Shown: piece after piece, positions 1,957 through 63,796 of the stretch
Position numbering within the stretch: position 1 is the stretch's first letter
Layout: every line of letters begins with the position of its first letter
NCBI GenBank assembly: GCA_964019415.1
Contig: OZ025868.1
Span: 2,750,461 to 2,814,460, forward strand
DNA length: 64,000 nucleotides
Direction of reading: 5' to 3'
Source of the DNA: Ianthella basta
Taxonomy: Eukaryota; Porifera; Demospongiae; Verongiida; Ianthellidae
Made by a program: the position numbers and the translations under genes
Notes under the pieces: generated by a model
Databases searched by the model: none
What the model was told of the DNA's origin: nothing
What the model saw: only the letters and a program-made list of their open reading frames with translations

Positions 1957-2629
1957 ATGGCTACGCAAATGAGCAAGAAGCCTTACGCCATTGCCAGAGT
2001 TATCTTTTCTTTTGGTTTACCGATCATTCTGCTTGCCAATGGGCAAGTTAACGATTCTTGTTGGTGTTGTTTGGAACTCGCTACAGCAGCTAGCTATACA
2101 TTTTACGTAGCTAGTTACCAGCTTAGCCATGCTAGATAGACGGCTATTGTTACTGCTGCGGGTTTGTGCTTGTATGAACACATGTAGTCATAGCATCATA
2201 ATTATTATAGCTATTATTGACTTAGATTGGCTTAATGTGTATCAAAACTAAAGGTATTAGCTAGATGGCACGATCTACGTATCCTTCAGGTGCTGCCCAG
2301 CGAGTGTTCCTCTCCGGATCCTCCACCAACCCCACTCCCTGTTTTGGTGACACTGTTGACCTCATCTGCTACTACCCTGATGTGATGGAGAGGGTGAATG
2401 GACAACTGAGGTACAGTGCTACTACAGCCAGCTACAGAATGAATGGGGAACTTGTTTTCCCTGATGATGACGTCTTTGATCAGAGCATCATAAACCAGAT
2501 GGCCTCAAGACTCAGAGTGAGCATTGACCCAGCCACCTTCACTGGTGACCCTGTCTCCTTCACTTGCTTCTTATCTTTGACTGGTGGAGGAGATCGAGGA
2601 CAACACCAGCGTTACCACAGACCCACAAG
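1957..2629 (+). pseudogene. Broken receptor 5' end: signal peptide exon + Ig exon
   Basis: Two exons are recognisable. The signal-peptide exon (1957-2047) starts MATQMSKKPY and continues into a hydrophobic core ending in LLANGQ; it resembles the first exon of receptor 3 (MATQWSMK). The Ig-like exon (2290-2629) starts GAAQRVFLS and is a close paralogue of the Ig exons at 21833-22162 and 30640-30969. Two lesions are visible. The splice donor that reads caag|gt in receptor 3 reads caag|tt here, so the usual phase-1 GT is lost. A 4-bp insertion (tcga, about 2594-2597) near the end of the Ig exon shifts its last 11 or so codons and makes the exon 340 nt instead of a multiple of three. The next in-phase receptor exon (5796) belongs to a gene with its own signal exon at 3907. 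I therefore call it a relic. An alternative donor could rescue it, but the obvious upstream GT puts TGA in frame within the Ig domain. Confidence 0.65.
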
Positions 2630-3906
2630 GTACACTGCAACCTTTCGCCTGTAGCTACCAGCATTCATGGCTGTAGCCCAAGTAGCTGAATATACTGCTT
2701 ATAGTGTACGCACACATTGTGTAGCCACCTTTGCAGTAATATGGTGCATTTTATTTTTTGAGTGCCATGTATGTGTGATAGCGTCTACCATTACCGCGTG
2801 CATGCACAGTAGAGAGTCACCAATGCAGTGATATATATACATACTTTTTGTGCCTCTTTTGCTAACTATAGGGTTGTCATTTGGTGTGTTGTGCTGTAAT
2901 AGCATTACATAGTCATTAAATGTGAGAGTTTGGTTAGTGGTACCGGTGGTGGTGTTTGGTGCCTGTTAATTACAGCGATTTGAAGAAGTGTGCACGTGTG
3001 TGGGGGGAGGGTGCTAACTGGCATATAATTATTTTAAAAATATATAGTGCATGGCTGGTGGTTTTGTCATGGTTTGATCCTTTTGAGTTTGATGTATGTA
3101 GTTTTGAATAATAATGTTTATGGATGCATGGTTTATTGGCACATGGTTGTCAGGTGCAGATGTAGTATAATTATGTGTGTAGGCTTGAACTGCCTAGCTA
3201 TGTATACTGGTAGTCCCAGATCAATGCATATGCATGCATGAGTATAAAATGCATGGTTTGGCATCTCCTGTCAGGCTATTTTATTTCCTTTGTCCATGGG
3301 GAGCCCATACCAACAGCAGCAAGTTCTAACAGTAAACATGCATTATTGCTTAGTTAAGGTATAGGGGTGGTGGCTTTGGGTTATGGTTCCCTCCTTTCAC
3401 AGTGTTAGCATAAGTACTGTTGCTATCACTAAAATTTCAACTCTTCCACTGATATATACTGTCTTATCGACACCCAACATGCACATAGATTAACAATGTC
3501 ATCATTAAATTCTATTTCAAAGTGCTTGTGTACTGCCATGTATGGTACTTGCATGATGGTGTAGAGTGTTTTTCTGCAGTTTCAATTTAATTGTGAGTCT
3601 TTTATATTGGTACACTCACAGTGTATCACAAGGTATATATGACACCAGACATTAATATAACAATTGCAATACAAATAAATATCTAGTGTAGTATATATAG
3701 AGAGAATGGTAAAATTATATGCATGCATGTGCAGTAGCAACACGCGCATGCACAGCTGTGGTAACAGGAAGTGCCATCACTGTCTCTTCCTGTCAAGCAG
3801 CAATTTCAAAAGCGTACGTACATGCCCTTTGGCAATAATTCCGTGAAGTATATAGGGAACAAATATTTATACAAGTGTTGATGCTGAAGAGAAAAGATTT
3901 TGGATC
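2630..3906. other. Intergenic, nothing recognised
   Basis: No exon, RNA gene or repeat recognised between the Ig relic and the signal-peptide exon of receptor 1. The short open frames here have no splice context or protein-like composition. Confidence 0.4.
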
Positions 3907-6664
3907 ATGATCAGCCAACGAGTGCAGAGTTGGCATTGTGTGGTGACAGTTGCTAGTTGCATGGTCATCTTCAGCTGGCCAGGGCAGGTACTTGCAGGTA
4001 AACTGAACGATAATGCCCCCCCTAAACCATCACTATATTAGTACAATCATGTCTACCTATATAACATGTCATTGTCCCACATATTGTAGAGTGCAACTAA
4101 TAAACAGAGTAACAATGGCCCATTACTGTCTTAATATGTACTAGCACACTCGAACAACAGTAGATTATGCATACCTTCACCCTGTGTCAGTTTGCCTATG
4201 TATCAACTATATAGCTACCATGCAAGATAGACATTGGGCAGCATTAGCCATGAACCACCAGTACAGTGGTTTCACGATTTCTAGTCCAGATTGACATTTG
4301 CGCATTGCACTTGATCACGTGAGTAAAGTATTGGAAGGATAGGCTCGCATGAGATAAGCATGTGCTTTAATTTACACGTGAGCCTAGCATTCCAATACTT
4401 TACCCACGTAATGGAGTGCAATGCGCAATGTCAATCTAGATTAGATATCATGAAACCACTGTGTACATGATAAAGTGATATGACTGTGGTCAACGTGATT
4501 AGATAATGAGTTATTGAATTATACTAATTGGCATGTGTTTACCAATGTGGTCTATAAACCCAATGTACTTCCAACCACTGTGCACTTGCGGTCAGTAGGT
4601 CTTTTGTTCGAGAAAAATGGGGAATGAGAGGATGTATGGTGTCTTGTGTATGTATATCTTACGTATATGCTCGCGTGCGTATAACTATCTTTATGCCAGC
4701 AAGTGGGGAACTTCTTAAGCACTGAACATGGCAAGGTAAGATCATTCAACTTAATCGGGATGTTTTGGCTGCGTAGGCCTTCATCAGCTGAAACTGAAGT
4801 TGCGATCGATTACATATTGTTATGCCACTTTCTGTGTCTACAACAATAGGTGTGACTTGTAATTGTACTCTGCTTTAAATCCAGAGTAATGTGAGTCATT
4901 GTTATAGTCATACAATGGGCACAATTGGCTATCACAGATGGTACATCTTCCTTGAACCCAGACAATAGTGTTGCCTACTGGTACAATGCATTAAGGTGGC
5001 TTTCAGTATAATTGACAATTGACTTACTTTCTCCTCAATTATCATGTTTACACTGTTCCTGGCCAGCAATGCAGTACACTTCTTAGGGCTGTGCTGAAAA
5101 TGTGCTGGCCAACATTATACAAGCTGCAGTACGTTATACTGCACATCTATTTCTGTGTTTTAATGATGGTGTCCAGTGGAGTTCTATAGCTTGCTCCTTA
5201 TCAGCTCCTGCAGTCCACCGTGAAGGCTGCCATCTTACTCTATCTTTGGGAGAGCTCCCTGTAGATTGAGAGTATGCAGGAGAAGGTAAAATCGGTTTGC
5301 AAAGATATTCTGTGCATGCACGCTCTTCTCGAGAGCGCAGTTCTAGTGCAGCTCCATTTATATTTGCCCGACAACCTGAGCTGAAGAGAGCCAGAATGGT
5401 TGTGTTCTGTGTCAGGCCAGCACAGTTTGTCACAGGTCAATTTGCTACTTTACACTTTTTATTGCGTTGACATGGTTATGATTGCCAGACTGAGTAAAAA
5501 CAATAATTTGTATAATGGGACTCACAACAGCTAGCCGCCGATTTCCTCTACACTGGTTTCACAATGTTTTGCCCCGTTCGCATGGTGCACAGCACGTGCA
5601 CATGAGGCTAGCAGCTGAGACTGATTGGTGCTTAAGTCAGAGGTACATGATCAATGTGATGATGTTGCAAATCACATGACTTCTTACACTGCTGTGGTGA
5701 TGAACCACCATGTACACACTGTACATACACGTGTCTGTGTGCCTAGAGCAAATCTACTACAGTAAACTTCCTATCATATTTCACACTACATGCAGGTTAC
5801 CCAGCCATAAGTGTACAGGCTCCCCACTGTTTTGGAAGACCTTTCAAACTCACCTGTCACTATCAGTATGAGACCACTAGGCCACCGGTGTGGTTGATGG
5901 ATGGCAAGCAAGTGGAGCATGATGGAAGTCAATTTGACATCAGTGACATAGATGGCTCACTTACTCTCCTGGATGTCAGTCAAATTGGATCTAACTTAAT
6001 AAAGAGCGTTTTTCAGTGTTGTGTGGAACTGACAAGTGGTCCACAAGTTTGTGGAGAACGCTACATGCTTGAATCACTTGGTAAGATGCATGTTACTGAT
6101 TTAATTATATCCATCCCATTTAATCCCCTGCTGTTTTGTGCTTTTTCCCTAGAAGAGCAACCTGACCCCCCATCGGTTACTTTAGTATCAATGACTACCA
6201 TTGTCCTGACTTGGAATATTTCCAAGAGCTGCTCTGGTTCTAAGGTGAACATATTTTGGCAGTCCAACAGAGGTGGTGGGCAGGCTATGAATGTGTCAGG
6301 GAACAGATTCACCATCACTGGCCTTACCTCTGGTGTGACCTATAACATCACTTTGGTTATCATTGGAGATGGAATTCAAAATGACTCAATATCCATCACT
6401 GCTACCACTAGAAGTAAGTGCTTACCTTGCATGTACTCACACTCAGTATGTAATCTGTTTTATAGCTTCTAATCTAAAATTCATTTTATTTCATGTTCTG
6501 TATGACATTGTGTAGGGGTAGAGGAGTTAACTCCAGCAGAGATGGCTGGGATTGGAGTTGGAGCTGAATTTGGAGTTCTGCTCTTGCTTATTTTTGTTGT
6601 CCATGCAACAGTGATAGTAATTATAACCATAACTATTAAGAAAGCATCTCAAGCACAGAAATAG
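3907..6664 (+). CDS. Receptor 1: signal peptide-Ig-FN3-TM, short tail
   Basis: Assembled from four exons: 3907-3997, 5796-6080, 6153-6413 and 6516-6664; all joins are phase 1 with GT-AG borders. The product is 261 residues. Exon 1 begins MISQRVQSWH and supplies a signal peptide ending near PGQVLAG. Exon 2 is an Ig-like domain: Cys in the B-strand context LTCHY, Trp in PPVWLMDG, paired C-terminal cysteines at FQCCVE. Exon 3 is an FN3 domain: IVLTWNI, then FTITGLTSGVTYNITLV, the usual L-x-x-G-x-x-Y core. Exon 4 carries a transmembrane helix (GVLLLLIFVVHATVIVIITI) and ends after a basic eight-residue tail, KKASQAQK. It acts presumably at the cell surface. The tail has no tyrosine. The exon at 7145-7276 cannot be joined in frame to this TM exon because three stops lie between. 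The FN3 exon is a close paralogue of 13285-13539. No family name is recognised. Confidence 0.75.
4264..4461. mobile_element. TA-target MITE, copy 1 (in receptor 1 intron)
   Basis: A 198-bp nearly palindromic element. The left end cagtggtttcacgatttcta is mirrored by the right end tagatatcatgaaaccactg, with inner arms also complementary. A second copy is at 37143-37344, where TA flanks both ends, as expected of Tc1/mariner-type MITEs. Here the right flank is TGTA, so the TA duplication is imperfect. A degenerate partial copy is near 61373-61470. Confidence 0.75.
4755..4795 (-). other. CTGATGAAGGCC...AAAAC motif (hammerhead/PLE-like)
   Basis: On the minus strand CTGATGAAGGCC is followed, after a short spacer, by GCC and AAAACAT. 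Similar arrangements occur at 18398-18431 (+), 53824-53870 (-) and 62741-62785 (-). The layout recalls a hammerhead ribozyme core (CUGANGA, stem II, GAAA), as found in Penelope-like elements, but the GAAA box is imperfect here. Confidence 0.3.
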
Positions 6665-8884: not shown

Positions 8885-9944
8885 AACTTTGGTGCTACAT
8901 ACAAAGCCACAAATTACACCATTGCCATATCAGTAACTGAAACAGGCTCGGCTATTAATCATAAATGCTACAAGTGTTCTGGCCCATTGCACATGGCAAC
9001 ACCTCACACTCCAAGCAACAGGTGTGCAGACTAATTATAAGCTAGAGGAGAAATACCAAACCTACAAGATGAGGTGGAGCTAGTGGTTAATGTGTCAGCT
9101 GCCAACAGGAATAAAGGAATGATGAATGCACAGTTTCATGTCATGGTAACATGTGAAAAGTCACAAGGAAGATCTACAGCAACCTCCAATATTATAGGCA
9201 AGCAGAATGAACCCATTATATGAACACATCACACATGCACTCTTACAGTATATACATACATACATAATAGTATTATGTACCATGTACCATATAAACATAT
9301 TATAATTACGTATGTTTGCATGTATGTGTGAGAGTGTGTATGGATACATTCTAGTGCACTTCTATGTGCTGATTCTACTGGTACTGGAGATCAAGGTGGG
9401 CTAGCTAAATTATAACAGTAGCCAGGCCACCTCGAATACATAGGTTTTGTACTGCATCATTTGTCAATGTATAATCATCAATTCATCTACATGCATTTGT
9501 GCTATTACTTTCCTACACCTTCACCACTGACTGCAGGTACAACAAGAGTTGCCACACACAACGCACAAGGTAAATTGAGCCAAATCACAATGCAGTACAA
9601 TACATCCCGGTATGTACATAATGGTATGTGCACATACTCACACAATAATTGGGTCCCATTACTGAAGCTGAATTGGCTAAACTTATAATTATGCCAACTG
9701 TCTCTCAGTTTCATGCTTCAATAGCTGTTCAACTTGCTCTCCCGCCCACAGAAAACGTCCTCATTTTGACTGTCCTAGTGCCTTTATTGGTGATAACGAT
9801 TGTCTCTGGTTCAATAGTGGCCATGTGTGTAATAGCTGTGAAGATAATGAAGGATAGGAATACAGAAAAATGCAAGGAAAATGAGTACACACACACACAT
9901 GCATGCACGTGCACACATGCACACACACACTTCTTCAGCTCTCC

Positions 9945-10260
9945 TTGTCCTGGATGGACGTAGGGCGGGATCTAGGCCCCGTTTCGAAAGCCAGTTAAAT
10001 GTCGGGGTGAGTTGGCTGGACTCACGCCCCTAACCCTGGGTAGGGTAGCTGCTGGGCGCCGTGGCCCTTCAAGGCCGTGGCTGGTCGCTCATTCATTGGG
10101 GTGCCGTGACCATGAGAGGTTGTTACTGGTCGCCTGTCCAAGTGACAACTGACCCACACAGGAGCCCAGGGGGTGCGGCGGAAAGTTAGTACTTGTGGTG
10201 AGAGGCCACTTTTCGGGTTCGAGAGGCTTCGTTGGTCCTGAGTTTGTTGGTCCTGAGCTT

Positions 10261-10261
<1 letters not shown>
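9945..10261. other. GC-rich insert of unknown type
   Basis: About 310 bp, clearly richer in GC than its surroundings, sits in the pseudogene intron between two CA tracts. It contains gggttcgaga, reminiscent of a Pol III B box, and a near-tandem ttggtcctgag pair at its right end directly before the CA array. It might be a SINE or retroelement fragment; I cannot classify it. Confidence 0.3.

Positions 10262-10325
<64 letters not shown>
10262..10325. repeat. (AC)n microsatellite
   Basis: An uninterrupted AC tract of about 32 units whose last cacag serves as the splice acceptor of the tail exon at 10326. Long His/Thr or Cys/Val frames across it are artefacts. Confidence 0.9.
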
Positions 10326-10327
<2 letters not shown>

Positions 10328-10489
10328 ATTAAGCCACACATATACGACACAGTCACCCCCTCACGCTCCACAAGGCCTGAAGCAGAAGACCCAGCAACTG
10401 CAGTGACAGCAAACCAGGCAAACCCAAGTTACATCCCCTTGGAGCAATTGCTGACGTCACACACAATGCATCAGCTGGGCCAAGTGTGA

Positions 10490-12221
10490 AGCGTGCAGAG
10501 TCACAGATGTACAAACCCATTGTAATTAAGTCACAATTATTTCAACCAGTTCCTATTGACTTTAGTAGTAATTACACACTTCCTTTACCTTGTAATCCAC
10601 CATTAGTCATGTGATATGTACCCTAGAGTGCTGTTGCTTTAGGAAATAACATGACTTGATGATAATGAGCGTCAGGTGCTGAAATAGTAGGAAAGAAAGT
10701 GTGCACATTTATGCACACAGAACATTCTGCCATAGCATTCTTACATCCATTCAGGTAATTTTGGAGTAATGCAAATATCTACCCAATTGCAATCTTCACA
10801 TCTCCATTCCTGTACACCTACCAGAGCACGTCCTCCTTCTATGCCCACTCCATACTTCACCGCCTCTCCTCCCTCTACACCAACCTGAAGGAATTTGGAC
10901 ATGATCTGTTGTCATGACTTCTTATGAATACCACATTCTCAAACATCTTGAAGAATGGCCTCTCATCACCAGGTGGAAGTTTACAGAAAGGATGAGGCAG
11001 AGCTCAAAGAGTCTCACGGTTCCATCTGAGACCAGAGTAGGCATGGGTGTAAGGAATGCTACTTAACGGCCATTAATACCATGATGAGTGCACACACACT
11101 CATGTATGTACATGCACAGCACACACAGGCATATACCACACATTGCTATTGGCAGGCATTGGACTGTCATCACTGCACACCTATACTGTACACTGGTAGC
11201 GTTACAAAGGCACATCTAAATGTACAGCTGCCCTTCATTAGAGAAAGGAAACAGCTGTGCACTGACTCAATGTACCTACATACTAGCAGATACACAAATC
11301 TCACATAATCCTACTCATAGAACTGGCACACAATCGTCAACAGCTTTTGTACAGCACAGTAGCTTGCTGTGTATTATGATTAATGTGATCATCTGTGTCC
11401 ACATTCACATGATGGACTGACAGAGCCAGAGCTAGCTGTGCATGCATGGAGGGTGAGGAAGAGTCTTGACTATAGATTATGATTGGATACCTCCTGATTG
11501 AATAGTGTATATATCTTTACTAGCAGAGTGACCCTCCTTCGGCGAGCTACGCGCACGACGCCAGTCCCCCCCCATGCCCTAAGCAACCATATTACTGCTA
11601 CAGTTAAAACTGATGATTATAGGCTTAAATTCGAACGTGGAACAGCAGCGAATATTGGATAGAATTGCATGCGCTGCATTTTGAGACTATTAACCTGCTC
11701 TGAAGAATGCGGACTACTAATTAAGGGACAGTCCCCTGTTGTGTGTATACAACTTTAAAATGGCCGTTACATTTGGTTAGCGGATTTACTTCTACTTCTC
11801 CTTCAGTTGTTCAGTTGTGTACCTCACCTCTCTCCCACCCCATGTAGGTGCAAGTGGTCACACAATCTCCCTGTTGGCTGTCACTGTTGTGTTAGTACTG
11901 GAGAGCTCTACTGGAGGAGAAGGTAACTAGGTACTCTACTGGAGGTAAATGAGCTTGTACATTGTATGTATGCTCTGTGTGCTCTGCATGCTTCTAACTC
12001 CACTGACAACATTATACTACTTTACAGCTCCACTACTACACAGTAAGCTGTGTTTGTTATGTATGCAGAATAGGTAGCGCCACTGACTCAGATAAGGGAA
12101 ATTGTAGTAGTAGCTATACGTATATGCTACGTATAGTGCAAGGACTGTATATAGCTGTATAGCTATATACATGGCAGCTCTTTTGTGCATGGATTATATG
12201 CGCATTCATTCCATCTCACAG
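10490..12221. other. 3' flank of pseudogene and spacer to receptor 2
   Basis: No intact gene. 10788-11335 is homologous to 61730-62220 (shared blocks gaatggcctctcatcaccag and cagagctcaaagagtctcac), so it is a duplicated flank. At 11850-11925 a stretch with acceptor and phase-1 donor (gaag|gtaact) encodes a hydrophobic run SLLAVTVVLVL and could be a signal-peptide exon of receptor 2 that has lost its ATG. In-frame there is no start codon. Confidence 0.4.
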
Positions 12222-14254
12222 CTGACTTAAATGTCTCCCTGGAGCTCCGAGGGGACTGTTCAGACGAACTCAACCTCATCTGCAGACATGATGCTGTTCC
12301 CACTGACCCAGCCTGGATACACAATGGGACAGCGGGGGCTGGTGAACTCCTTGTCACTGCCTTCCCTGGGTTGACAATGTACTCTTTCCAGAACAGCACA
12401 GAACACAGAGTGACAGTCACTGAAGAGGATAGTGTAACAGCTCTGGATGGATATGTTTTCCAGTGTGCATACAGCATACAGGGCACCCCCATCAAGAGCA
12501 ATGCAGTCCAGTTCACTTTTGTTCCTAATGGTCAGTCACACACAACACATTGCCCCAAATGTCTTACATGTATTGCCACTACAAACTGCATGTTTACTGT
12601 ATGCCGTGCATGACATTGTGCAGTGCTACTGGAGTCATTATCCATGGACAAATATTGAACCATACTGTATTGTATGTGTCCAATCTGTGCCAGAGTAGCT
12701 AGGGGCTTGCTATATTAGCTATGATGTAATCAATTTGCAGCGCTGTTACCTGTACATGTACTCTAATGTGGACACTAACTTACAGTCTGTATCGATCGGT
12801 GCTGTAATACCTGAGTGGGCTGCACTGTATGTACTGAATACATCTCCTTTTTATCTCCTTGAATTGGTCAATTTGTTCAGACATTGCTGCACCACCAACA
12901 TTCACATGTGTTGTGGTGAATGGTACCATGGCAACGGCATCATGGCACCACACTGACAAAGGACCCCGCTTCACTAACCTCACCTTCTCCTACAACGTTA
13001 CTTGGTACCCTGTGGTGGGAGGGGTCCCACTGAGGGGGGAGGGGCAGAGTGGGGCAGAGTGGTGTGACTGGACCAGGTGCAAAAGCATACACCATCACCA
13101 ACCTGATGAATGGCACAGACTACCAAGTGGAGTTGTTTGGGTTCACTTCAAGTGACCCAGTTGTGTACAGTGAGGTGGCTACAGTGAACATCACAGCAGA
13201 AGGTGTGTGCATTAGTTATACCACATACACAAGTGTAGCCAGACCATTTGAATCCCCTTATGCTTCATGCAGTCGTCCTGGCAGAGCAGCTTGACGCTTC
13301 AGTAGCTGCTTCAGCATCAATGACTTCTATTGTCCTGACTTGGGGTTTTTCCTTGACTTTCACTATATCCACCATTAACATATTCTGGCATTCAAACAGA
13401 GGTGTTGGACAAGCTATGAATGTGTCAGGGAACAGTTTCACCATCACTGGCCTTACCTCTGGTGTGTCCTATAACATCACTTTGGTCATGGTTGGAGATG
13501 GAATAAGTGATTCGGTATCCATCTCTGTTGAGACTGCTAGTAAGTGCTTCACTTGCATGTACTTGGCGTGTGATCTTTATATGGCTGTAGGAAGATGTTC
13601 AGAATGTATTGTATTTTATGCTCTGTATATGTACAGGTGTAGAAGGCGTATCTGTGGCATTTGCATCTGTTACACTTGTGATGAGTGCATTGGTATTGAG
13701 CATACTGGCAGTCATAATTACAATCATAAACAGCATTCGGAAAAGAAGAAATTTTTACAACTTTCTCGCGGAAGAAGCAATTCCTCTAAATGTATGTGGT
13801 GCTAAGATGAAGTGCTAATGTGTGTGTGTTTCTGGGTAGTAAGCACACACATGTATGTGTGCATGTGTCTGTGTATGCATGTGGTACAGTATGTCTGTGT
13901 ATGCATGTGTGTACAGTATGTGTGTGTTGGGAGTACCTTACTTTTGGAAGAAAGGCTGCTGTATCTTCTACTTCAGGTGCCTCAAAACACTACAGGTTCA
14001 TCTGCTGAAGGGAATAGCATGGAGGAGGCAGAGGTGGAGGAGGTATGTTTAAAGCTTCATGTTACTGGTATGCAGTACATTCATAACATTACCCTGTAGC
14101 ATTATAATGTACACAAGTTGTATAACTGTGTGCAGGCTGTGGGTCAGGGTACACAGACACCGCTAGCTGGTGGTGAAGTTGAGAGTGCAGGCAACAGTAC
14201 TTCACCAGCTACTCCTGCAGTTGGGGGTGAGGCCATGGAAGAGAGTAAAGTAAG

Positions 14255-14480
<226 letters not shown>

Positions 14481-14492
14481 ATTCATTTGTCT

Positions 14493-14621
14493 GTACTCAT
14501 TTTCCTTGCATTTTTCTGTATTCCTATCCTTCATCTTCACAGCCATCACACATATGGCCACTATTGAACCAGAGACAATCATTATCACCAATAAAGGCAC
14601 AAGGACAGCCAAAATGAGGAC

Positions 14622-14623
<2 letters not shown>
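14493..14623 (-). pseudogene. Antisense copy of a receptor TM exon
   Basis: Read on the minus strand this encodes VLILAVLVPLLVIMIVSG, then a basic end MKDRNTEKCKENE. It is nearly identical to the plus-strand TM exon of the pseudogene at 9752-9884, one codon shorter. It is inverted relative to receptor 2 and bounded by (TG)n on one side and (AC)n on the other. The acceptor that precedes the 9752 copy is replaced by CA repeat. It probably arose by an inversion or template switch at microsatellites. Confidence 0.75.
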
Positions 14624-14659
<36 letters not shown>

Positions 14660-14661
14660 CA
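14624..14661. repeat. (AC)n microsatellite
   Basis: A short AC tract, complementary to the TG tract at 14258-14480, so that the antisense TM exon is framed by inverted microsatellite arms. Confidence 0.85.
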
Positions 14662-15512
14662 GTCAAGCATATGTACTACTGTAAGGGTGACTGTCTACAC
14701 ACTGTGCAGTGAAGAGACCGGCAACAAAGAAGGACATAGAAGCTGAGTGGCATGCTAACCCATCCTACCTGGCAGTGGCACCAAAATTGCAGGAGGAAGG
14801 AGGAGAGCCAGAGAGATCTGAAAAAATACATGAATACATGAATATTAATGTCATGCGCTTGGAGATAAATGGCAGGCCATTGCACAAGCTATCGTTACCA
14901 ATGGCGCATGGGGAAAATGAGGGACTGGAGATATCTGAAGAAGTGCACATGCAAGAAGAAGAAGGGGTGGAGAGATCTGAAAAAGTGCGTGTGCAGGAGG
15001 AAGAAGGAGGGCCGGAGGGATCTGAAAAAGTGCTTGTGCAGAAGGAAAGAAGAGGGCCGGAAAGATCGGTAAAAGTGCATGTGCAGAAGGAAGGAGGAGG
15101 GCCAGAGAGATGTGAAAAAGTGCAATACAAGAATGTCATGCGTGTTGATGTAAAAGTTAAAGGCAGTCCATTGCACAAGCCAACAGTACCAGTAGTGCAA
15201 AGTGATAAAGAGAGACAGGAGAGGTCTGGAGAGAGAGGATATATGAATGTGTGGAACTAGTGCACTGATTATATTGAAACAGAATTGCATTTATGAGCTG
15301 TATTGAACCTAATCTCATATACATATGAGCATGCTGACACTGTTTGATGGTGTGCACATTGTAGCATTTGCATTGAAAGACAAAAATTCCAGATCTCTTT
15401 CCTCACAATTGCATGTGGACTAAATCTTCAGACCTACACAGAACTTAAACTGAAAGAGCCATATACGGATTCCATTGACTTTAATTCATATCTATCCACA
15501 GCAACACTATAA

Positions 15513-17040
15513 TAATATCAATCAATCAATCAATCATACACAGCTTTATCTCCAATGCTGGAGGTTGCTGGAATTATTTTCAAACAGTTCTGTGCAAGAA
15601 ATAGTTCACATCATGCTGTACTAAATAGTTCAATAATTAACTGTTCAATTTACTTTCAGATCATCAGCCCATCTTTTCCTTGGTCTTCCCCTCGGTCGCT
15701 TTCCGGGCACATTCTCCATATACACCTTCTTTACCATCCTGTCATCTGTCATTTCTTCCATCTTCTTTAACCATTCTGTCTTCTTGTTCTCTACTCTTGA
15801 TACCACTGCCACCTGTCCCAGTCTTGATCTAATATCAACATTCCTCACTTTGTCCAACATAGTCACTCCTTCCACTCTCCTCAGGCATCTCATTTCAAGG
15901 GCTTGTATTCTGCTCTTGTGTCTCTCTAGCAGGGTCCAGGTCTCACATGCATACAACAGGGTTGGCATCACCGTGGCATTGATCACTCTAAGTTTTGTTG
16001 CCTTGCTCAGTTCTCTTCGATCAATTATCTCTTTTCTCATAGCTCCAATCACTTTGGATGCTGCTCCTATTCTGTGGTCTACCTCTGCTTCACATGATCC
16101 CTCTTCATCTAACATGGCTCCTAGATACTTCATTGTCTTCGCATTTTCTATCTCCACTCCATTTACTGTAATGTTGCATGTGCCTCCTCCTCTCTTCACC
16201 ACCATTACCTTTGTCTTTCCCCAATTGATTGTCATTCTCCATTTCATCATCACTTCATCCAGCACCTTCACATTTCTTTCTGCATCCTCATCTCTTTCTG
16301 TCACTAACATTAGGTCATCGGCAAACAAGAGAAGCTGTACTGTGCCTGTTTCCATCTCAACTCCTCCTTCAAACCTCTGTTTTGCCTCCCTCACAATGTT
16401 GTCCATAAAGATGTTGAATAGCCATGGTGACATAGTGCATCCCTGTCTCACTCCTTGTCCTACTCCAAACCAGTCTGATTTCTGACCTTGAACCCTGACA
16501 CATGCCTTACCATCATCATATAGTGACCTCACTGCTCTTATCAGCTCACCATTCACTCCATATGCCCTAAGCACTCTCCACAATAACTCCCTGTCTACCC
16601 TGTCGTATGCTTTCTCTAAGTCCACGCAAACCATCAGCATCCTCTTGTTCTTTTCAATAATCTTCTCTCCTAACTGCCTGACAGTAAACAACTGGTCTAC
16701 ACAGCTCCTCCCTCTTCGGAATGCCCCCTGCTCTTCCAACACTTTCCCTTCAGTGATTGTCCTCATCCTCTTCTCCAACACACTGGCATACACCTTGCCA
16801 GGTATACTCAGCAAGCTGATGCCCCGGTAATTCTCGCATTGGGTTCTGCTTCCTTTCTTGTGGATCGGGACAATCAGTGCCCTTCGCCAGTCCATTGGGA
16901 CACTCCCACTCCTCCATGCCAGGTCCATGATTTTGTGCAGCCACTCTACCACTACCCCTCCACCTGCTTTCAGCATTACTCCAGTGACCCCACATACTCC
17001 AGGTGCTTTCCTATTTTTCAGTCTATAATAATACTCCCAC
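15513..17040 (-). mobile_element. 5'-truncated non-LTR retrotransposon (RTE/CR1-like)
   Basis: On the minus strand the reverse transcriptase part of a LINE is followed by a 3' end in TGAT repeats (plus-strand CAAT repeats at about 15518-15535). Short tandem-repeat tails are usual for RTE-type LINEs. Homology stops abruptly near 17030-17040, so the endonuclease region is missing. Similar CAAT runs at about 33400, 55982 and 58457 may mark other 3' ends. The clade is inferred from motifs, not a tree. Confidence 0.8.
15645..16976 (-). CDS. LINE reverse transcriptase fragment
   Basis: An open frame of 443 residues; upstream codons in frame to about 17030 (KNRKAPGVCGV) belong to the same protein. 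Visible RT motifs are IVPIHKKG, YRGISLLS, the palm motif around VDLEKAYDRV, QGVRQGCTMSPWLFN and catalytic FADDL. A C-terminal basic stretch (GKRPRGRPRKRW) is typical of such LINE ORFs. The endonuclease domain is absent through 5' truncation, so the copy cannot be autonomous, but the remaining frame is uninterrupted, which suggests a fairly recent insertion. The first Met is internal to the original protein. Confidence 0.85.
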   Translation of the reverse strand: MLKAGGGVVVEWLHKIMDLAWRSGSVPMDWRRALIVPIHKKGSRTQCENYRGISLLSIPGKVYASVLEKRMRTITEGKVLEEQGAFRRGRSCVDQLFTVRQLGEKIIEKNKRMLMVCVDLEKAYDRVDRELLWRVLRAYGVNGELIRAVRSLYDDGKACVRVQGQKSDWFGVGQGVRQGCTMSPWLFNIFMDNIVREAKQRFEGGVEMETGTVQLLLFADDLMLVTERDEDAERNVKVLDEVMMKWRMTINWGKTKVMVVKRGGGTCNITVNGVEIENAKTMKYLGAMLDEEGSCEAEVDHRIGAASKVIGAMRKEIIDRRELSKATKLRVINATVMPTLLYACETWTLLERHKSRIQALEMRCLRRVEGVTMLDKVRNVDIRSRLGQVAVVSRVENKKTEWLKKMEEMTDDRMVKKVYMENVPGKRPRGRPRKRWADDLKVN

Positions 17041-24500: not shown

Positions 24501-24678
24501 GATAATTGTATTATTCTCTACAGTGAAGGAACTGAAGCCAAGTAAGGAAGAAGATGTTGAGCTGGAGACTAACCCATCCTATCAGTCTGTTGCCCCGGCA
24601 GTGCAAGTGGAAGGAGGAGGACTGGAGGGACCTGGAGAGATGAATTACATGAATGTGGGACTAGTGCTACAGTACTAA
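21514..24678 (+). CDS. Receptor 3: signal peptide-Ig-FN3-stalk-TM-tail
   Basis: Six exons read open with GT-AG borders and phase 1 throughout: 21514-21592, 21833-22162, 22669-22992, 23266-23349, 23693-23785, 24524-24678; the product is 354 residues. The signal peptide is MATQWSMK... with core MFLIIRIVLLTTGQ. The Ig exon starts GAAQRVFLSS and has Cys in VDLICYY and VSFTCFL. The FN3 exon has FSYNITWYPVVGG, then VITNLLPNTSYQVEIVGF. The stalk is a 28-residue Ser/Thr/Gly-rich exon. The TM exon (VLVVTLAVSVLVSAATC) is followed by VKIHYLKSQ. The tail has NPSYQSV and NYMNV: an NPxY phosphotyrosine/PTB-type motif and a YxN motif of the kind bound by Grb2-type SH2 domains when phosphorylated. Several N-x-S/T sites fit an extracellular domain. 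No lesion is seen. It is presumably a cell-surface signalling receptor; the ligand is unknown. Confidence 0.8.
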
Positions 24679-48500: not shown

Positions 48501-50990
48501 TCGCCTGGTTGTGGGCCTGTGTGATCTAGCCTATCTGAGAAGCTCCAAATGGATGCAGAACTCACTCTTGAGAAATCTGTCACTGCAGCTCGACAGAGTG
48601 AAGCAGTCAAGAAGCAGCAGGCAGTAGTCAGAGGCACAGAGAGCCAGGCCACTAACATTGACAATGTCCATAGCCGCCAGCACCAATCCAAACGAACCAG
48701 AGAAGGAGGCCAGCAGCAACAGAAGCACTTTTCTTCCCAGTACAAGCAGAAGCAAGTCACCACTGCAAAGACTTGCACAAGGTGTGGTAAAACACCCTCC
48801 CACAGCCGACAACAATGCCCAGCATGTGAAGCTACTTGCAGCAAGTGTGGTAAGAAGGGCCATCATCAAGTCTTTTGCAGATCAGGCAAGTCCATCAGCC
48901 TGGTCACGACCAACCAAGATGACGTATTCATTGCAGCTATACATGGGCAGGTGCCCACAGTTGATGCGAGAGACAACCTCTGGGTGGTGACCATCTCCAT
49001 CAACGAATCACCAGTGGAATTCAAGATTGATACTGGGGCAGATGTCAGTGTCATTTCCGAGTCTACCTACAAGGCACTGAACAGGAAGATGTCTCTGATG
49101 CCAGCAAGCAAATCCCTTACCGGTCCCAGTTGTCAGCCCCTGAATGTCTGTGGCCAGTTCACAAGCACCCTCAAGCATGGAGCCTGCACATCTAAGGAAA
49201 AGATATTTGTCGTGCAGACTCTGCAGATGTCTCTACAGGGACGCCCAGCCATAGAAGCTCTGGGATTGGTTTCAAGGGTGAACACGGTGGGAGACCAGAG
49301 ACAACACTACACAGCGAAATATCCAGAATTGTTTCGAGGATTAGGCAAGATCCCAGGGACACACCACATCCAATTGAAAGACGACGCCAAGCCATTTGCA
49401 CTTTCCAGTCCAAGGAGAGTAGCTCTTCCTCTGCAGCCCAAAGTAAAAGCTGAACTGCAGAGAATGGAGCAACTGGGAGTCATATCCAAAGTAGATGACC
49501 CAACAGACTGGTGCGCAGGGATGGTGTTGGTACCCAAACCAGACGGCAAGGTTCACATTTGCGTAGACCTCACCAAATTGAATGAAAGTGTCTGTAGAAA
49601 GAGACACATTCTTCCCTCAGTAGACCACACCCTCGCCCAACTTGGAGGAGCAAAGGTGTTCACTAAGCTTGACGCCAATTCCGGATTCTGGCAAATCGAG
49701 CTTTCAAAAGAATCAGCTCTCCTCACCACGTTCATCACCCCTTTTGGGCGATTTTGCTTCAACCGACTCCCATTTGGAATCACCTCAGCACCAGAGCACT
49801 TCCAAAAGAGGATGTCCGAAATCCTCGAAGGCCTAGAAGGAGTTGCTTGCATGGTTGATGACGTTCTAGTCCATGAGAGGACACAAGAAGAGCACGACAA
49901 GCGACTGGACGCTGCCCTGGAACGAATTGCACAAGCCGAAGTCACACTCAATGCAGAGAAGTGCCACTTTTCTCAGAGCAGTGTCAAGTTCTTGGATCAC
50001 ATTGTTGACGAAACTGGCATTCACCCTGATCCAGAGTAAGTCAATGCCATTCAAGCTATGAAGGAGCCCACCAACACCTCAGAATTGCGCCGATTCTCTA
50101 TCTTTCTAGCGCTTGTGGGGCTTGCCAGAATAAGTTTTTTTTTTAAAAATGCAGCATTTAACTGAAAACAAAATGTAAATGTCATAATAATGTGAACAAT
50201 TCAGCATACCTGGATCTTAACAATTAGCTTCATGGGATCTGTGTTTCTTAACAAGGTTGCTGACTTCACAGTGGGCTGAGGGGGGCCTACATTCAAGTAG
50301 AGAAGTGCAGTCGTGGTAGAACGCAAGAGCTAGTAACTTTTATGAAGTGCATACTGTTCAAAGCTAATGCGTTAAGTCAACATGACACAGCTAGCTAGCC
50401 ACACACTTCGTACATAAATGCACTCGTATATACATTTACTCACTTGCATATTGGTAGATAGTAAAATTTGGGCTGAACAACTTTTCTCCAGTGTTTGGAA
50501 GGATGAAGGCTTGTATGGTGAAAGGCAAGTAGTGGGACGTATTCAACACAAACAATAGCTGAAACCCTTCGGTTGTCTTTGCTATCGTGGCGCTTAGATC
50601 ACCAGTTGCTGTCTGAAGCCTTGTGATGATACTAGTGTCAGTGCCACTACCTCGAAACTGTGGCTGCACCCGAGAGCCATTGACCGGGTTAGTCAAGTTG
50701 AGGCACACGCGTTCCTCACAACCAGACGCAGGACAGCACATGTGTTCTTTGCCGTCGCAGGCAGTCACCTTGAGAACCGCTGCAAAGCGAGACAACAGGT
50801 GAAGTCAAGAACATACTCCAGCTATCTAGTTGCTAAATAATAGGACAAAGCTACGGTGTAACTGAGATACACAGTGGATTGTGCGTAGTCACCAACCTTC
50901 ACCATCACTTTCGGAACACCGGCTAACATAGGCTAAAAAATAGCCGAGAATGGCGGTTAACAATAGGGCGGGCGCTTTCCCTGGAAACAT
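42504..50990 (-). CDS. Receptor 5: Cys-rich Ig-like ectodomain, TM, long multi-exon tail
   Basis: Minus-strand exons, 5' to 3': 50990-50897 (signal peptide, MFPGKAPALLLTAILGYFLA), 50779-50444 (Cys-rich domain: HMCCPASGCEERVC, ending FTIQAFILPNTGEKLF), [one phase 1-to-0 exon not located], 46133-45917 (FN3-like second half), 45837-45805 (11-residue stalk), 45721-45600 (TM with a run of eight valines, then WYCHSTHKKTIK), then phase-0 tail exons 45375-45310, 44526-44461, 43845-43825, 43411-43328, 43244-43038, 42952-42773 and 42557-42504 (TAG). The phases add up to a whole number of codons if the missing exon behaves like 52783-52856 of receptor 6. The tail is acidic; its end reads VVYANT then, across the last junction, NSMTALYSIL. 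A Ty3/Gypsy element in the opposite orientation fills much of the gap. It is head to head with receptor 6. The unresolved join is the main uncertainty; a 26-nt candidate near 46490 is too weak to use. Confidence 0.65.
43627..44846. repeat. Tandem duplication within receptor 5 tail region
   Basis: The unit 43627-44126 is repeated at 44133-44846, the second copy being longer by an insertion of about 200 bp near 44340-44560. Each copy contains a foldback (43674-43771; 44182-44282) whose arms gttattgtatggtcaactat and its near complement are almost perfect. The duplication carries a tail exon: 44461-44526 (TEGEITASSF...) and a 21-nt version at 43825-43845 (TEGENMK), both with usable phase-0 borders. 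Confidence 0.75.
46134..48003. other. Receptor 5 intron sequence
   Basis: I could not place the missing receptor 5 exon here with confidence. Minus-strand 46360-46551 has open frames in two phases with some Ig-like flavour (APTVQIQVSAAL), but no coherent acceptor and donor. The stretch just before 48004 may be the Gypsy LTR; its start is not discernible. Confidence 0.3.
48004..50145 (+). mobile_element. Truncated Ty3/Gypsy LTR retrotransposon
   Basis: It starts with a primer-binding-site-like tggtgtcagaag (48004) just after a probable 5' LTR end, then gag and pol. Homology ends about 50110-50145 soon after the reverse transcriptase, followed by a T/A run; RNase H, integrase and the 3' LTR are absent. 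It lies antisense in a receptor 5 intron. The LTR boundary upstream could not be defined. Confidence 0.8.
48098..50039 (+). pseudogene. Gypsy gag-pol, broken by frameshifts and a stop
   Basis: Gag begins MATYQIAPPEKFNYS at 48098. The frame breaks near 48245 and again near 48525, giving three overlapping open pieces (48098-48253, 48253-48627, 48549-50039). The last piece has two CCHC-type zinc knuckles (CTRCGK..., CSKCGKKGHH), an aspartic protease active site DTGADVSVIS, and reverse transcriptase motifs FTKLDANSGFWQI, LPFGITSAPEHF and a catalytic box MVDDVLV in place of the usual YVDD type. It stops at TAA 50037-50039, where a sense codon is expected, with further pol-like codons after it. The copy is inactive. 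Typical full elements continue into RNase H and integrase, missing here. Confidence 0.85.
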
Positions 50991-51343: not shown

Positions 51344-56364
<5,021 letters not shown>

Positions 56365-57585: not shown

Positions 57586-58948
57586 AACACGCATTCCAAC
57601 ACAAAACACACTCGCACTACATGTAGAACACACACACGAACATAACTGTGTAAACCACACACACATATCGAGATCAGACACACCACACACTACACAACAA
57701 CAAGACAATTTGTATCCCATTTTCCTACACAACAGATGAAGCCATTTTGGCCATAGCACTGTACATCACTGCACCACTGCTGTCAATACTCACCGCTGCA
57801 TCTCTGGCCATAGCCTGTTTATTGGCTGTGAAACTGCATAGAACAGGAAGGAACAAGAATGTTACATCAGGTACTGTGTGACAACTACATCGACCAGTCC
57901 GTCACTAGGGCATTCTGGTACTACCAAGAGAACAACTGGTTTGCAAGTTGTTAGGATAAGACAATGCCTCCCACTGTCTCACACCACATCTTAGGTCGTG
58001 AGGTTCAGTATGCTAGGGGACAGGGTTGTGCAACATGGTTGCCATGAGTGTCATTCAACTGACAGCTCACGTTGAGCTCTGGACTATGGCCTCACTTTTG
58101 GCAGGTAATGGTAGCACATGAACAGTTTTAAGTTCCCTGCGTACAGCACCAAACAAGGTCGAAGTTCAAAGGTACAGTAGTCTTCAGTTGAATGACAGTC
58201 ACAGCAACCATTTTGTAAAACACTGTAACTCTACACAGATGGTAGATGGCAACAATTCTACTACTCTAGATGAATATGTATACATAATTTTAGGGAACAG
58301 AGAGCCCTACCACGCTCTCTATTTGGTAATCAGTGGACTCTTGTAGTATGTGATGCCAAGTCACCCAGGCATGCAATGAAACCAAATATGAAAGGTCACT
58401 CACTAATGATCTAATTAGCCAAATGAAAACACCTGTAAGGCATGTGCTCAGATAAATCAATCAATCATAAGCTGTTTGTTGGCAGGTAGGGGGAGGGTAA
58501 CTGGTTATATCAGGTTTCTACTGGTATACCAAAATAACAGGAAGTGGAGGTGTTGACAGGTGGTCATGTTGTGTGGGCCAGTCTGTTAGGGCGAGAAGAA
58601 TGTATCAGCTTTAACACAACTGTCTTCTCTGGAATGTCTTGTCATCCCAACTACACCCCCCCCCCCCCCACACACACTCAGGTAATAAAGCACCAATCAT
58701 ATACGACACAGTCGCGACTTCACACTCCACAACAAGACCCGAAACAGAAGACCCACCAACTGTAGCTACCCTGAATCCCAGCTATGTACCCCTCGAGCAT
58801 TTGCTGATGTCCCACACAGTGCACCAGCAGGACCATGTGTGAACATGAAAGTGTTGGATAATACCCTATTGTAAACTCATTAACAGTACAACTTCTATCA
58901 CCATTTACTGAATTACTGCATAATTATCCACTTCCTTTGCCTTGATAA
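57535..58948. repeat. Tandem duplication, unit 2
   Basis: Second copy of 55075-56475. Beyond 58948 it joins sequence equivalent to 57247 onward (acaaacaattctgtccacta), i.e. the block matching 56476-57246 is missing here and instead appears at 59497-60045. Confidence 0.85.
57736..58842 (+). CDS. Duplicated TM + tail cassette of receptor 6
   Basis: Exons 57736-57870 and 58682-58842 duplicate the last two exons of receptor 6 with intact acceptor, donor, phase 1 and stop codon. Changes are few: in the helix SLAIACLLAV replaces SLTIACLLAV; in the tail LNPSYVPLEHLL replaces PNPSYVPLEQLL; IIYDTV is unchanged. No signal, Ig or stalk exon precedes it, so it is either an alternative 3' end for receptor 6 (the phase permits splicing from 55053 to 57736) or the tail of a gene whose front was not duplicated. 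Confidence 0.6.
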
Positions 58949-61001: not shown

Positions 61002-61091
61002 TGTGTGTGTGGTGTGTGTCTGTGTGTGTGTGGTGTGTGTGTGCGTGGTGTGTGTGTGTGTGTGTGTGTGTGTGTCTGTGTGTGTGTGTGT

Positions 61092-61130
<39 letters not shown>

Positions 61131-61149: not shown

Positions 61150-63248
61150 TATGATGGACACTGAAGTCCTGTACAGCTGAAAATACAGCAGTTGGGGGAT
61201 CACAGAATGTCTGTACATCAGGATATGACAAACCTACCATGGCAAAAGTATACATTTTGTCCATGTAAGCACACACACCGTATACACCAACACACTATGT
61301 ATAACATAGATATGGTGACTTATGATATTACTTATTTTCCATTACAACAGATTAAAATCAGTTTGGCAATACAGCTGTTTCAGGGTTTCTAGTCCCAATT
61401 CAAATTACATTGTGTTCTGCACTCAATCATGTCAGTAAAGTATTGATTGGTATGGTACAGATTCACATGTGCTCCCATTGTCGACTGACGTCATCACACA
61501 CACAAGTAGCTATGTTCCAAATGCAGTGTTCACGTGATGGAGTGGTGCACATGGCATTAGGCCATTTGGGACAAGAAACATTACGTACAAGGACAATGCG
61601 TGATTGTGCAATAATAGAGGCTAGCATGCTAGACCAATTATGCATGGAGAAAGGCAAAGAGAAGTGATCATATCAATTGGAGATATCTTGCTGTCTTCAA
61701 GTACAGTGCAAGTACCAACGCCTCTTCATTTCTGTGCAGACCAGAGCATGTCCTCCCCCATTCCCTCCCCTACTGCATAGCTTACACTCTTACTGGGAAA
61801 TCAGAAATCATCTGTTTGTCATGTGCTCTCATGAACACCACACTCTCAAACAGCCTAAAGAATGGCCTCTCATCACCAGGGGGAGGATAGCAGTAAGAAT
61901 GTGGCAGAGCTCAAAGAGTCTCACGGTTCCATCTGAGACTGGAGTGGGCATACGGTGATGAGATGAGTAGGTGCAAAGAATGCTACTTAATGGCCATTAC
62001 CACCATGATGAGCACACACATACGTACATGCATGTCTCGCACAAAACACATACCACATGTTGGTATTGGTATGCAGGTGTTGAGCTGTCCTCATCTATAC
62101 ACCTACACTATTAGCGTCTCTACAATACATGTACGTGTACAGCTACCCCTCTCTGGAGAAACAGTGCACAGGTTAATGCACATACACATACATAGTCCTG
62201 CTCATAGAACTGGCACAAATCTAATGTTAGCTACGCTATAAATGCCGTGTATTTTGTCTGTGCATGTGCTTCAGTTACCAAGTAGTGCAGTAAACGTCTC
62301 TCACTGACTGTTATGGACTTACCTGTAGTCGACTTAGGAAAAGGCACCTTGCGTAATGAAGTTCTCATGAATACCCCAGGAAGTGATATAGCACCAACAT
62401 AGAGTAGACAGTGAACCCTTCACGGGGCGGGAGGAGACGAAGTACATCTTCCGCGGTGAAGATTAGGCGGATTCGTTTCCAAAAGTAATACACTGCACCA
62501 TAGTACACGCGCCATTTTGTCGCCTTTGTACAGCTAGGGGAAACCCCATTAGTTAATTCTCTGTAATCACTCATAATTATGCGCGCATGATCATGCCCAT
62601 GCAGACTGAGGCGGTGCATGCATGGGCAACAACTATATAGGGGACGCTCGGTTATTTAAAAGCTAGAGACGTACTGCATGTCGATCACGTGCACGTGCGA
62701 GCTAGAGCAAAGGACTTAATAGATATTCTAAACAAGAAAAGGACATTTTGTAATTCCATGGACATGAAGGCCTTCGTCAGCATATGCAGCTGCTAAGACT
62801 TCGTGATGATTACCAGTGACGAATGACAAGCATTATTATGCATGAATTTTAATTCACATGAAGCCAATTGATGAAGCAGGAACAGTGGGTATAGACTAAA
62901 TTATTTAACCTAAAACAAAATATACTGTTCCAAGTCTTAATGATACTATCTAAGGCTCCACTAGGTTCTGCAAAGGACAAAGCAAAGACAAAATATGAAG
63001 AAATATAGGTCAGTGCTTATTGCAGCCAAATACAGTTATGTACCAGATGCATCTAAAGCCGAAATATGTAGCACTCCAGGACAGAATATCTATAGTAAGT
63101 TAACATTGGACACCAACACACACAGACCCCCATTGATGAGACGTACACATGCACATGGGAAAATAGATGGTTAGCCCTATGCACACATACCATCACAGCA
63201 TACATGCAACACCCCACTGAGATGCACACATACACACCATGGGTTTGG
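61150..63248. other. Intergenic with duplicated receptor 3' flank
   Basis: 61730-62220 is homologous to 10788-11335, the flank of the receptor-6-like pseudogene. 61373-61470 is a decayed copy of the 4264-4461 MITE. 62741-62785 (minus) has a CTGACGAAGGCC...CAAAATGT motif. 62380-62520 is GC-richer and might be a promoter, but no start exon could be attached. Confidence 0.45.
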
Positions 63249-63796
63249 CTAGCCACATCCTTCGGGGTCTGAAGGTTCATTCACACTACCAGTCGTAAAA
63301 GCTTGCACCTGCTCATTACTGCACTGGACATCTGGTGTGGAACCTTTGTTCCATGTACACAGGGCTCCAGGCTGCAAAGGTAAGGAATGAGAAGTGATCA
63401 TAGCAATCTTGAAGGTCAACAGTGTGATGTATGTAGATTACACAATAAGACAGCCAAGACAGTCTCGACTTCATTATGCCAGACCTGCTCCATTCACGAA
63501 AACTCAAATGTATTAGTTACAATAAATCAGCCCATTGGATGCAATGTAAGACAACACACCTCCACATATTTGGAACCCCCATCTGTCTTAAACAGCACTA
63601 ATGCTTCTTCGCTCTTAGTCTCTGCATTTGCCCCCGGTGGTGATGTTTGCCCCTCCTGGACAAAATGTTGCAACAAGACAGAAGCACTGTGAATTGAATA
63701 ATTATACCTTGCATCATGCTGGAGTAAGTGCAGGCTTACGTCTTTGGCAAGTGCACGCATGCTCTCTTCATCCATTTCCGCATCATCTAAATGATC
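63249..63796 (-). CDS. Receptor 7 (partial): 3' tail exons
   Basis: Three minus-strand phase-0 exons: 63796-63740 (DHLDDAEMDEESMRALAKD), 63655-63560 (EGQTSPPGANAETK..., ending GSKYVE) and 63371-63249 (PGALCTWNKGSTPD..., stop TAG). Borders are GT-AG (gattcgtag, ttgtccag, ctttgcag acceptors). Composition, exon size and phase match the receptor 5 tail; the last exon starts PG after a similar acceptor, as does 43244, and QTSP is shared with exon 43411-43328. The TM and ectodomain would lie beyond the right edge. A possible 18-nt exon near 63862-63880 (HCVKVL) is unproven. The gene is called a receptor only by this analogy. Confidence 0.5.

Follow-up and report, generated by a model that had tools for sequence, protein, structure and literature searches.

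Opposite-strand pairs of immunoglobulin- and FN3-like receptor genes form a megabase-scale family in the sponge Ianthella basta, with a possible role in recognition

A 64,000-nucleotide stretch of the Ianthella basta genome (C1:2750461-2814460, contig OZ025868.1; hereafter the window) carries several single-pass receptor genes, all on the plus strand, whose splice models join signal, immunoglobulin (Ig)-like, fibronectin type III (FN3)-like, stalk, transmembrane (TM) and tail exons. The receptor cluster described there by an earlier note, made from the letters of the window, is genuine, yet the window is a small slice of the family: its scale is megabases of a 209.09 Mb genome in 96 contigs and its paired layout lies mostly outside the window, both of which go beyond that note. 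Many of the genes are laid out as opposite-facing pairs in which both receptors have the same Ig type and the tails are unlike. On balance, we think that the locus probably belongs to a complex of recognition receptors diversified in the germline, which would serve allorecognition, our first choice, or immunity, with microbe sensing as the second.

The pairing is clearest at C1 0.30-0.82 Mb. Here, 39 exons of the Ig type termed IgC switch strand at 37 of 38 junctions, a value equalled in none of 100,000 shuffles; two IgC rows at C1 0.38 Mb are fragments and do not enter the count, and treating both as separate genes would reduce the alternation. Of the 19 plus-strand IgC exons, 17 are followed at 2.4-2.9 kb by a tail exon of one class, class 3, whereas none of the 20 on the minus strand has one behind it. 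In the second cluster, at C1 1.96-3.15 Mb, the orientation is reversed, with the class 3 tail within 4.5 kb of 20/23 minus-strand IgC exons and near 0/10 plus-strand ones, gene C of the window among those ten. Pooled over both clusters, the class 3 tail stands behind 37 of 42 IgC exons of one orientation versus 0 of 30 of the other (Fisher test, the p-value being only descriptive because the copies are not independent). These pair counts also omit one overlapping tail row and exclude contigs C9 (six IgC rows) and C7 (one row), and the two-cluster count additionally omits four fragmentary IgC rows at 2.34-2.42 Mb. Tandem copying of a single two-gene unit accounts for the regularity; the unit itself, which at C1 0.30-0.82 Mb bears a conserved NPSY...SKYVNL tail on one gene only, is the finding.

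Six-frame searches of the whole genome, the figures of which are lower bounds, returned 85 matches to the IgC exon, 73 of which are free of stops and span 93 or more of the 101 residues. The second Ig type, IgD, gave 43 matches (15 near full-length at 65% identity or more), the FN3D exon 31, the class 3 tail exon 74, and the tails of genes F and D seven and two, respectively. The two C1 clusters are the main sites of these matches; minor sites are found on C9, C7, C3, C5 and C23 and at a few other places on C1. A profile census of 264 kb of DNA (including 12.5 kb of N and a 460-base gap) counted 15 IgD, 6 IgC, 5 IgB2, 10 FN3D and 10 FN3B2 exons, fragments of broken copies included. Elsewhere in the genome, an array of very similar FN3 exons at C12 1.688-1.713 Mb, which includes open frames of about 250-375 amino acids, holds the strongest fn3 matches, and further dense fn3 exon clusters are located at C8 7.18-7.55, C12 7.01-7.13, C6 5.97-6.12 and 9.41-9.43, and C4 3.56-3.63 Mb; the dense clusters on C8, C12, C6 and C4 are perhaps further receptor families.

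Within the window, the splice models, built by hand from reading the DNA, give the following features.

21514-24678, plus strand: gene D, intact, 354 amino acids, open from ATG to stop, all junctions GT-AG
21514-21592, 21833-22162 and 22669-22992, plus strand: gene D signal, Ig and FN3 exons (fn3 E 3.1e-5)
23266-23349, 23693-23785 and 24524-24678, plus strand: gene D stalk, TM and tail exons (tail with NPSYQSV, YMNV)
51344-56364, plus strand: gene F, intact, 480 amino acids, open from ATG to stop, all junctions GT-AG
51344-51413, 51600-51911 and 52175-52501, plus strand: gene F signal, Ig-like and further domain exons
52783-52856 with 54616-54931, and 55006-55053, plus strand: gene F split domain and stalk exons
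55263-55397 and 56204-56364, plus strand: gene F TM and tail exons (tail with IIYDTV, NPSYVPL)
30640-36143, plus strand: gene E, with all parts present from the Ig exon onward (fn3 25.3 bits, cut-off 25)
30640-30969, 34185-34514, 35197-35259 and 35396-35485, plus strand: gene E Ig, FN3, stalk and TM exons
35580-35701, 35788-35922 and 36081-36143, plus strand: gene E tail exons, without NPxY
5796-6664, plus strand: gene B2, with Ig-like exon 5796-6080 and FN3 exon 6153-6413 (fn3 E 8.9e-5)
6516-6664, plus strand: gene B2 TM exon with the stop, leaving a very short tail
11949-15260, plus strand: gene C, with signal-exon candidate 11949-12042 and Ig exon 12222-12530 (IgC type)
12881-13202, 13285-13539 and 13637-13791, plus strand: gene C FN3a, FN3b and TM exons
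13977-14042, 14136-14249 and 14715-15260, plus strand: gene C tail exons (NPSYLAV, YMNI, YKNV, YMNV)
1957-2645, plus strand: gene A, broken, with a signal exon from 1957 that starts like that of gene D and has a displaced donor
from about 2290, plus strand: gene A Ig exon, with a frameshift close to the exon end
9752-10489, plus strand: TM and tail remnant, TM from 9752, tail 10326-10489 (HIYDTV, NPSYIPL)
57736-58842, plus strand: tandem duplicate of the gene F TM (57736-57870) and tail (58682-58842) exons
15645-17039, minus strand: reverse-transcriptase open reading frame (ORF) of a retroelement between receptor genes (RVT_1 E 1.2e-41)
47900-50039, plus strand: retroelement ORFs, of which ORF 48525-50039 matches protease and reverse transcriptase (RVT_1 E 4.5e-24)

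Four or more intact genes had been reported, which is too many: D and F are intact, and E, B2 and C are near-complete. The intact genes span six (D) and eight (F) exons. In the splice models, all four internal exons of gene D, and four of the six of gene F, are a multiple of three long and start in phase 1; the two exceptions in gene F, 52783-52856 (74 nt) and 54616-54931 (316 nt), sum to a multiple of three and apparently encode one split domain. Over the two genes, 8/10 internal exons are a multiple of three long. For gene E a convincing signal exon was looked for and none was found, and gene B2 offers weak candidates only. Gene C has all receptor parts present, but its FN3a exon (322 nt) is out of frame owing to a 10-bp tandem duplication. 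The broken copies that had been reported among the clustered receptors are real, comprising the frameshifts in genes A and C and the TM and tail remnants. Extracellular exons of the unit at 9752-10489 (plus strand) were not found, and no receptor part could be assigned at 61-63.8 kb of the window, where two ORFs were scanned.

Two recent tandem duplications mark the right part of the window, one at 55.2-58.85 kb (offset about 2.47 kb), which copies the gene F TM and tail exons, and one at 59.0-60.5 kb (offset about 1.1 kb); in both, many translated stretches are 94-100% identical. The retroelements inside the receptor cluster, at 15645-17039 (minus strand) and 47900-50039 (plus strand), are of two kinds, neither being part of the receptors. 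Long (CA)n/(GT)n runs occur, for example, at 10.2, 14.3, 53.0 and 60.5-61.2 kb, several of them within receptor introns.

With several copies broken, the region could be viewed as recently duplicated and largely decaying, with little present function, so that strand alternation and shared tails would be by-products of the duplication of a two-gene unit. Such duplication does account for the alternation, and the sameness of the tails may be recency. Against this stand the 73 of 85 IgC matches that cover at least 93 of 101 residues free of stops, the two window genes that are intact over six and eight exons, and a ratio of nonsynonymous to synonymous differences (pN/pS) below 1; we consider decay very improbable.

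The earlier note had proposed protein search and structure prediction for the Ig and FN3 domains. The FN3 domains were recovered by Pfam; the Ig domains were not seen by Pfam in the window ORFs, and their assignment draws on relatives and models. Pfam scans covered 20 window ORFs in all, with the fn3/Ig tally made on ten. The fn3 profile matched 4/10 (E 1.8e-5 to 1.3e-3), one above the curated cut-off, and in genes D, E and B2 a single Ig-like exon precedes an exon that matches fn3. No Ig model matched any of five Ig-like window ORFs at E up to 1. Three ORFs of gene F scanned by Pfam, membrane-proximal domains included, showed neither Ig nor fn3 and gave one weak unrelated match. Sequence searches of the PDB returned nothing convincing for the receptor domains.

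The Ig fold is a beta-sandwich with a disulfide between strands B and F, a Trp in strand C and a D..[YF].C motif in strand F. Among the 77 rows of the IgC alignment (A3; 76 of 120 listed relatives and one window exon), six match Ig_2 (best E 0.0018) and five match ig (best 0.002). Cys21 and Trp32 are invariant, Trp32 lying eleven residues past Cys21, and Cys82 is nearly invariant; in the AlphaFold model (predicted local distance difference test, pLDDT, 80.4), LDGYVFQC leads into the strand with Cys82. Membership of the IgC type in the Ig superfamily is thus well supported by sequence and model, with a predicted disulfide. The IgD alignment (A2, 84 rows; 81 relatives and three window exons) has Ig_2 matches in three members (best E 0.026), and its AlphaFold2 model, at mean pLDDT 83.9, shows seven successive strands, the second of which holds Cys25 and the sixth Cys91. 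The IgD type likely belongs to the Ig superfamily as well, again with a predicted disulfide, although its case is weaker than that of IgC. Both modelled exon families possess an Ig-like strand order. A profile comparison aligned Cys, Trp and Cys of the two types, but with an E-value of 0.087 and a probability below 1% this alignment alone shows nothing. The corresponding exons of genes F and B2 are called Ig-like from sequence features judged by eye.

The cytoplasmic tails carry recurring tyrosine motifs: NPSYQSV...YMNV in gene D, NPSYLAV...YMNI...YKNV...YMNV in gene C, IIYDTV...NPSYVPL in gene F, and the conserved NPSY...SKYVNL pattern in the class 3 tail, the sequence of which is QPNPSYCSVEMSHQQLMSSRLENESKYVNL. 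A six-frame translation of the 264 kb contains 12 instances of NPSY, each within receptor-tail sequence (one in a broken copy, one in the duplicated remnant found at 58.7 kb), compared to 0-4 in ten shuffles of three-base blocks. Six tails, those of genes D, E, F and C, class 3 and the partner gene, were queried for motifs. NPSY is present in four of them, while the gene E and partner tails have no NPxY and no YxN. Three of the six match a loose pattern for the immunoreceptor tyrosine-based inhibitory motif (ITIM; [SIVL]xYxx[IVL]), by IIYDTV in F, SKYVNL in class 3 and VQYKNV in C, and those of D, E and the partner do not. The likeness to leukocyte receptor tails drawn in the earlier note extends to tyrosine motifs in general and not to the immunoreceptor tyrosine-based activation motif (ITAM; YxxL/I x6-8 YxxL/I), found in 0/6 tails. 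NPxY is a phosphotyrosine-binding (PTB) domain or endocytic motif, and YxN a Grb2-type Src homology 2 (SH2) motif; from these motifs we infer a possible signalling route through NPxY and YxN.

Variation in the IgD exon is concentrated in a core. Synonymous and amino-acid differences both peak in residues 36-68 (0/2000 shuffles each), and across the 84 rows of A2 mean entropy is greatest in the third that holds this core, at 1.40 bits versus 0.92 and 0.67. That the core is raised at synonymous sites too points to conversion, recombination or uneven mutation more than to selection alone. The pairwise homoplasy index (PHI) test on IgD gave 0/1000 at each of three window sizes, a test liable to mislead where rates are patchy. 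When ten IgD loci were compared, similarity mostly ended at the exon edges, and most flanking introns were unalignable. We read these patterns as exchange between IgD copies around the variable core.

Relatives of these exons occur in other assemblies. At E up to 0.01, a protein database clustered at 90% identity, which hides near-copies, returned 118 IgD and 176 IgC relatives (120 listed), the listed ones nearly all from ENA contigs; their assignment to shared contigs is inferential, and the contigs may be haplotypes or species. Copies on contigs of 1.446 Mb and 0.661 Mb are 99-100% identical to this genome. A 1.685-Mb contig has 20 listed IgD relatives, three of them at 90-95% to the DNA of this genome examined, and contigs of 5.81 Mb and 1.40 Mb have 17 and 11 listed. 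An IgD tree was built from 54 rows, of which 12 are exons of this genome and 42 are those of the 118 relatives that lie on large contigs. One 24-row group takes in every one of the 21 rows from the 5.81-Mb and 1.40-Mb contigs and none from this genome, with moderate support (81/72), above a weakly supported deeper fork (60/82); rows of the 1.685-Mb contig and of this genome are interleaved. The tree suggests that relatives elsewhere largely form separate expansions.

Taken together, a model for the receptor family emerges. Each receptor would be a type I membrane protein with a variable N-terminal Ig domain, at least one FN3-like domain, one TM segment and a short tail that mostly bears tyrosine motifs; the exon sequences of genes D and F show this predicted layout. 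The exon positions show that the genes multiply by tandem duplication, the unit at C1 0.30-0.82 Mb being two opposite-facing genes of the same Ig type, and the IgD variation centred on residues 36-68 is reshuffled between copies, as the statistics over 12 copies suggest. The Ig domain may bind a variable ligand on another cell, perhaps another family member. Ligand binding could then lead to phosphorylation of tail tyrosines, with PTB adaptors recruited at NPSY and Grb2-type SH2 adaptors at YxN. A pair with unlike tails might set acceptance versus response, or act as receptor and co-receptor.

Several observations weigh against the recognition model. The clearest pair array sits about 2 Mb from the window, and strand alternation in the second cluster is much weaker (17/32). 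A membrane-proximal exon taken from two plus-strand IgC genes of the second cluster has only five close copies. One of these, on the minus strand, lies near a class 3 tail gene, and more distant relatives of the exon (31-39%) come after IgC exons of either strand. A second partner tail exon, DTDSLPEK...NSYLLLTAHL, from one minus-strand gene of the first array, was found three times where 10-20 had been predicted beforehand, albeit in the predicted direction, with 3/3 copies on the minus strand of the array, where a minus-strand IgC exon precedes each of them by about 3-3.6 kb. Over 12 open IgD exons, the nonsynonymous to synonymous rate ratio (dN/dS) is below 1 on average (median dN 0.193, dS 0.300, ratio 0.67) and above 1 in 10 of 66 pairs, and long shared runs exceed chance in only three of the 66 (p up to 0.002). 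The class 3 tail, at pN/pS 0.47 versus 0.62 for IgC (six copies each), is not clearly more constrained.

These comparisons led to the rejection of three candidate statements. The membrane-proximal exon was discarded as a mark of all partners, given its five close copies and relatives on both strands; with three copies of the second tail, partner tails must be of several kinds or outside the reach of the search. Positive selection on the IgD exon is not shown at a median dN/dS of 0.67. Stronger constraint on the tail than on the ectodomain is not supported by pN/pS over six copies each, so recency may account for the sameness of class 3 tails.

A dN/dS below 1 on average would also be expected if these genes encoded ordinary adhesion or gamete-recognition proteins that were duplicated by chance, and single-pass proteins with Ig and FN3 domains are common adhesion molecules. 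The copy number, the opposite-strand pairs with unlike tails, the separate expansions and the broken copies are unusual for housekeeping adhesion, and we judge this explanation improbable. A weightier alternative, which we hold to be a realistic though minority possibility, is that the family senses microbes, as a sponge counterpart of innate Ig receptor clusters in which pathogens or symbionts drive copy number and the pairs are activating and inhibitory. It draws on the same layout and duplication evidence, NPxY tails fit uptake receptors, and the sequence does not separate microbial from self ligands. According to passages of PMC6208332 and PMC8242945, the genes that respond when sponges are treated with microbial signals include Ig-domain genes; this family is not described there.

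Returning to allorecognition, we tentatively put forward a more specific proposal, doubtful in its full detail: a sponge allorecognition complex of about twenty opposite-strand pairs, each of one Ig type with unlike tails, that would act as receptor/co-receptor units signalling via NPxY (PTB) and YxN (SH2) rather than ITAM/ITIM, vary in pair content between haplotypes, and be convergent with FF/FcoR of Botryllus. Sponges reject foreign grafts, and we know of no receptors identified for this rejection. The locus is defined and mappable, with exons that can be typed in graft crosses. The family would also extend clustered paired Ig receptors with tyrosine tails to an early animal branch, and its putative NPSY and YxN signalling code would be unlike the ITAM/ITIM code. 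A 2025 review (PMC12065747) calls invertebrate allorecognition mechanisms "a complete mystery" and, in the passages available, notes that the candidates of sponges, cnidarians and ascidians are not conserved.

Other gene families of this genome were also surveyed. Homeodomain matches number 32; 13 were fetched and 12 were readable, these being NK-, POU- and LIM-like by eye (class names from general knowledge) and none Hox-like. So small a homeobox set is in keeping with a sponge and speaks against a bilaterian or cnidarian, short of proof. Two near-identical NK-like homeodomains, C1:97919-98089 (minus strand) and C1:138104-138274 (plus strand), lie close to one end of the receptor-bearing contig, separated by about 40 kb. 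The cathepsin family, searched for silicatein as a sponge marker, has 45 matches, with the canonical GSCW[AS]F site in 6/12 loci fetched, two of which overlap. Three tandem cathepsin-like genes at C6 3.129-3.137 Mb have long uninterrupted frames and an altered catalytic-cysteine region (GEIGDS and similar); their identity as silicateins is not clear, the usual catalytic-site residues being missing.

No description of this receptor family was found in those parts of the open-licence literature that were available. Among known systems, the vertebrate leukocyte receptor complex and natural killer (NK) paired receptors are dense clusters of single-pass Ig receptors in which ectodomains are shared, tails are unlike and some copies are broken. 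The resemblance to such complexes seen in the earlier note holds at the level of layout, where dense clustering, shared ectodomain types with unlike tails and broken copies recur, and is strengthened by the opposite-strand pairing; in contrast, the six sponge tails queried have no ITAM and match ITIM only loosely, and the membrane-proximal domains are FN3-like. Within sponges, the usual self/non-self candidate is the aggregation factor, with secreted proteoglycan cores bearing Calx-beta and Wreath domains, in contrast to the membrane Ig receptors described here. The factor is named for cell reaggregation in a passage of PMC11999971. The main text of an Amphimedon grafting transcriptome study (PMC5450542) does not contain the terms immunoglobulin, Ig-like or receptor. 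Sponge Ig-TIR receptors, with extracellular Ig and intracellular TIR domains according to passages of PMC6208332, are likewise membrane Ig proteins; theirs is a TIR tail, whereas no TIR domain was noticed on reading the present tail exons, of which few were scanned, nor by Pfam in the window ORFs scanned, including the last tail exon of gene C and the TM region of gene E.

The Alr complexes of Hydractinia and Podocoryna, with 41 and 22 genes (PMC11999971 and PMC13119343, respectively), are by their description also large clustered Ig-superfamily families of early-branching animals. Judging from the passages available, they differ in domain make-up and tail motifs from the Ig and FN3-like receptors described here, and those passages do not mention opposite-strand pairing. 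The fuhc locus of Botryllus encodes FF and FcoR receptors in adjacent, co-expressed pairs, FcoR bearing tyrosine motifs, as described in passages of PMC12065747. FcoR is there given a V-type Ig, a sushi and two C2-type Ig domains with ITIM or hemITAM, in contrast to the Ig and FN3-like domains and NPSY/YxN tails of the sponge receptors; no sushi match was obtained among the 20 window ORFs scanned. By that description, the two systems are alike in clustering Ig receptors in adjacent pairs of which one partner carries tyrosine motifs, and adjacent gene pairs are evident in the sponge array at C1 0.30-0.82 Mb, in the 37/38 strand alternation and the segregation of the tails.

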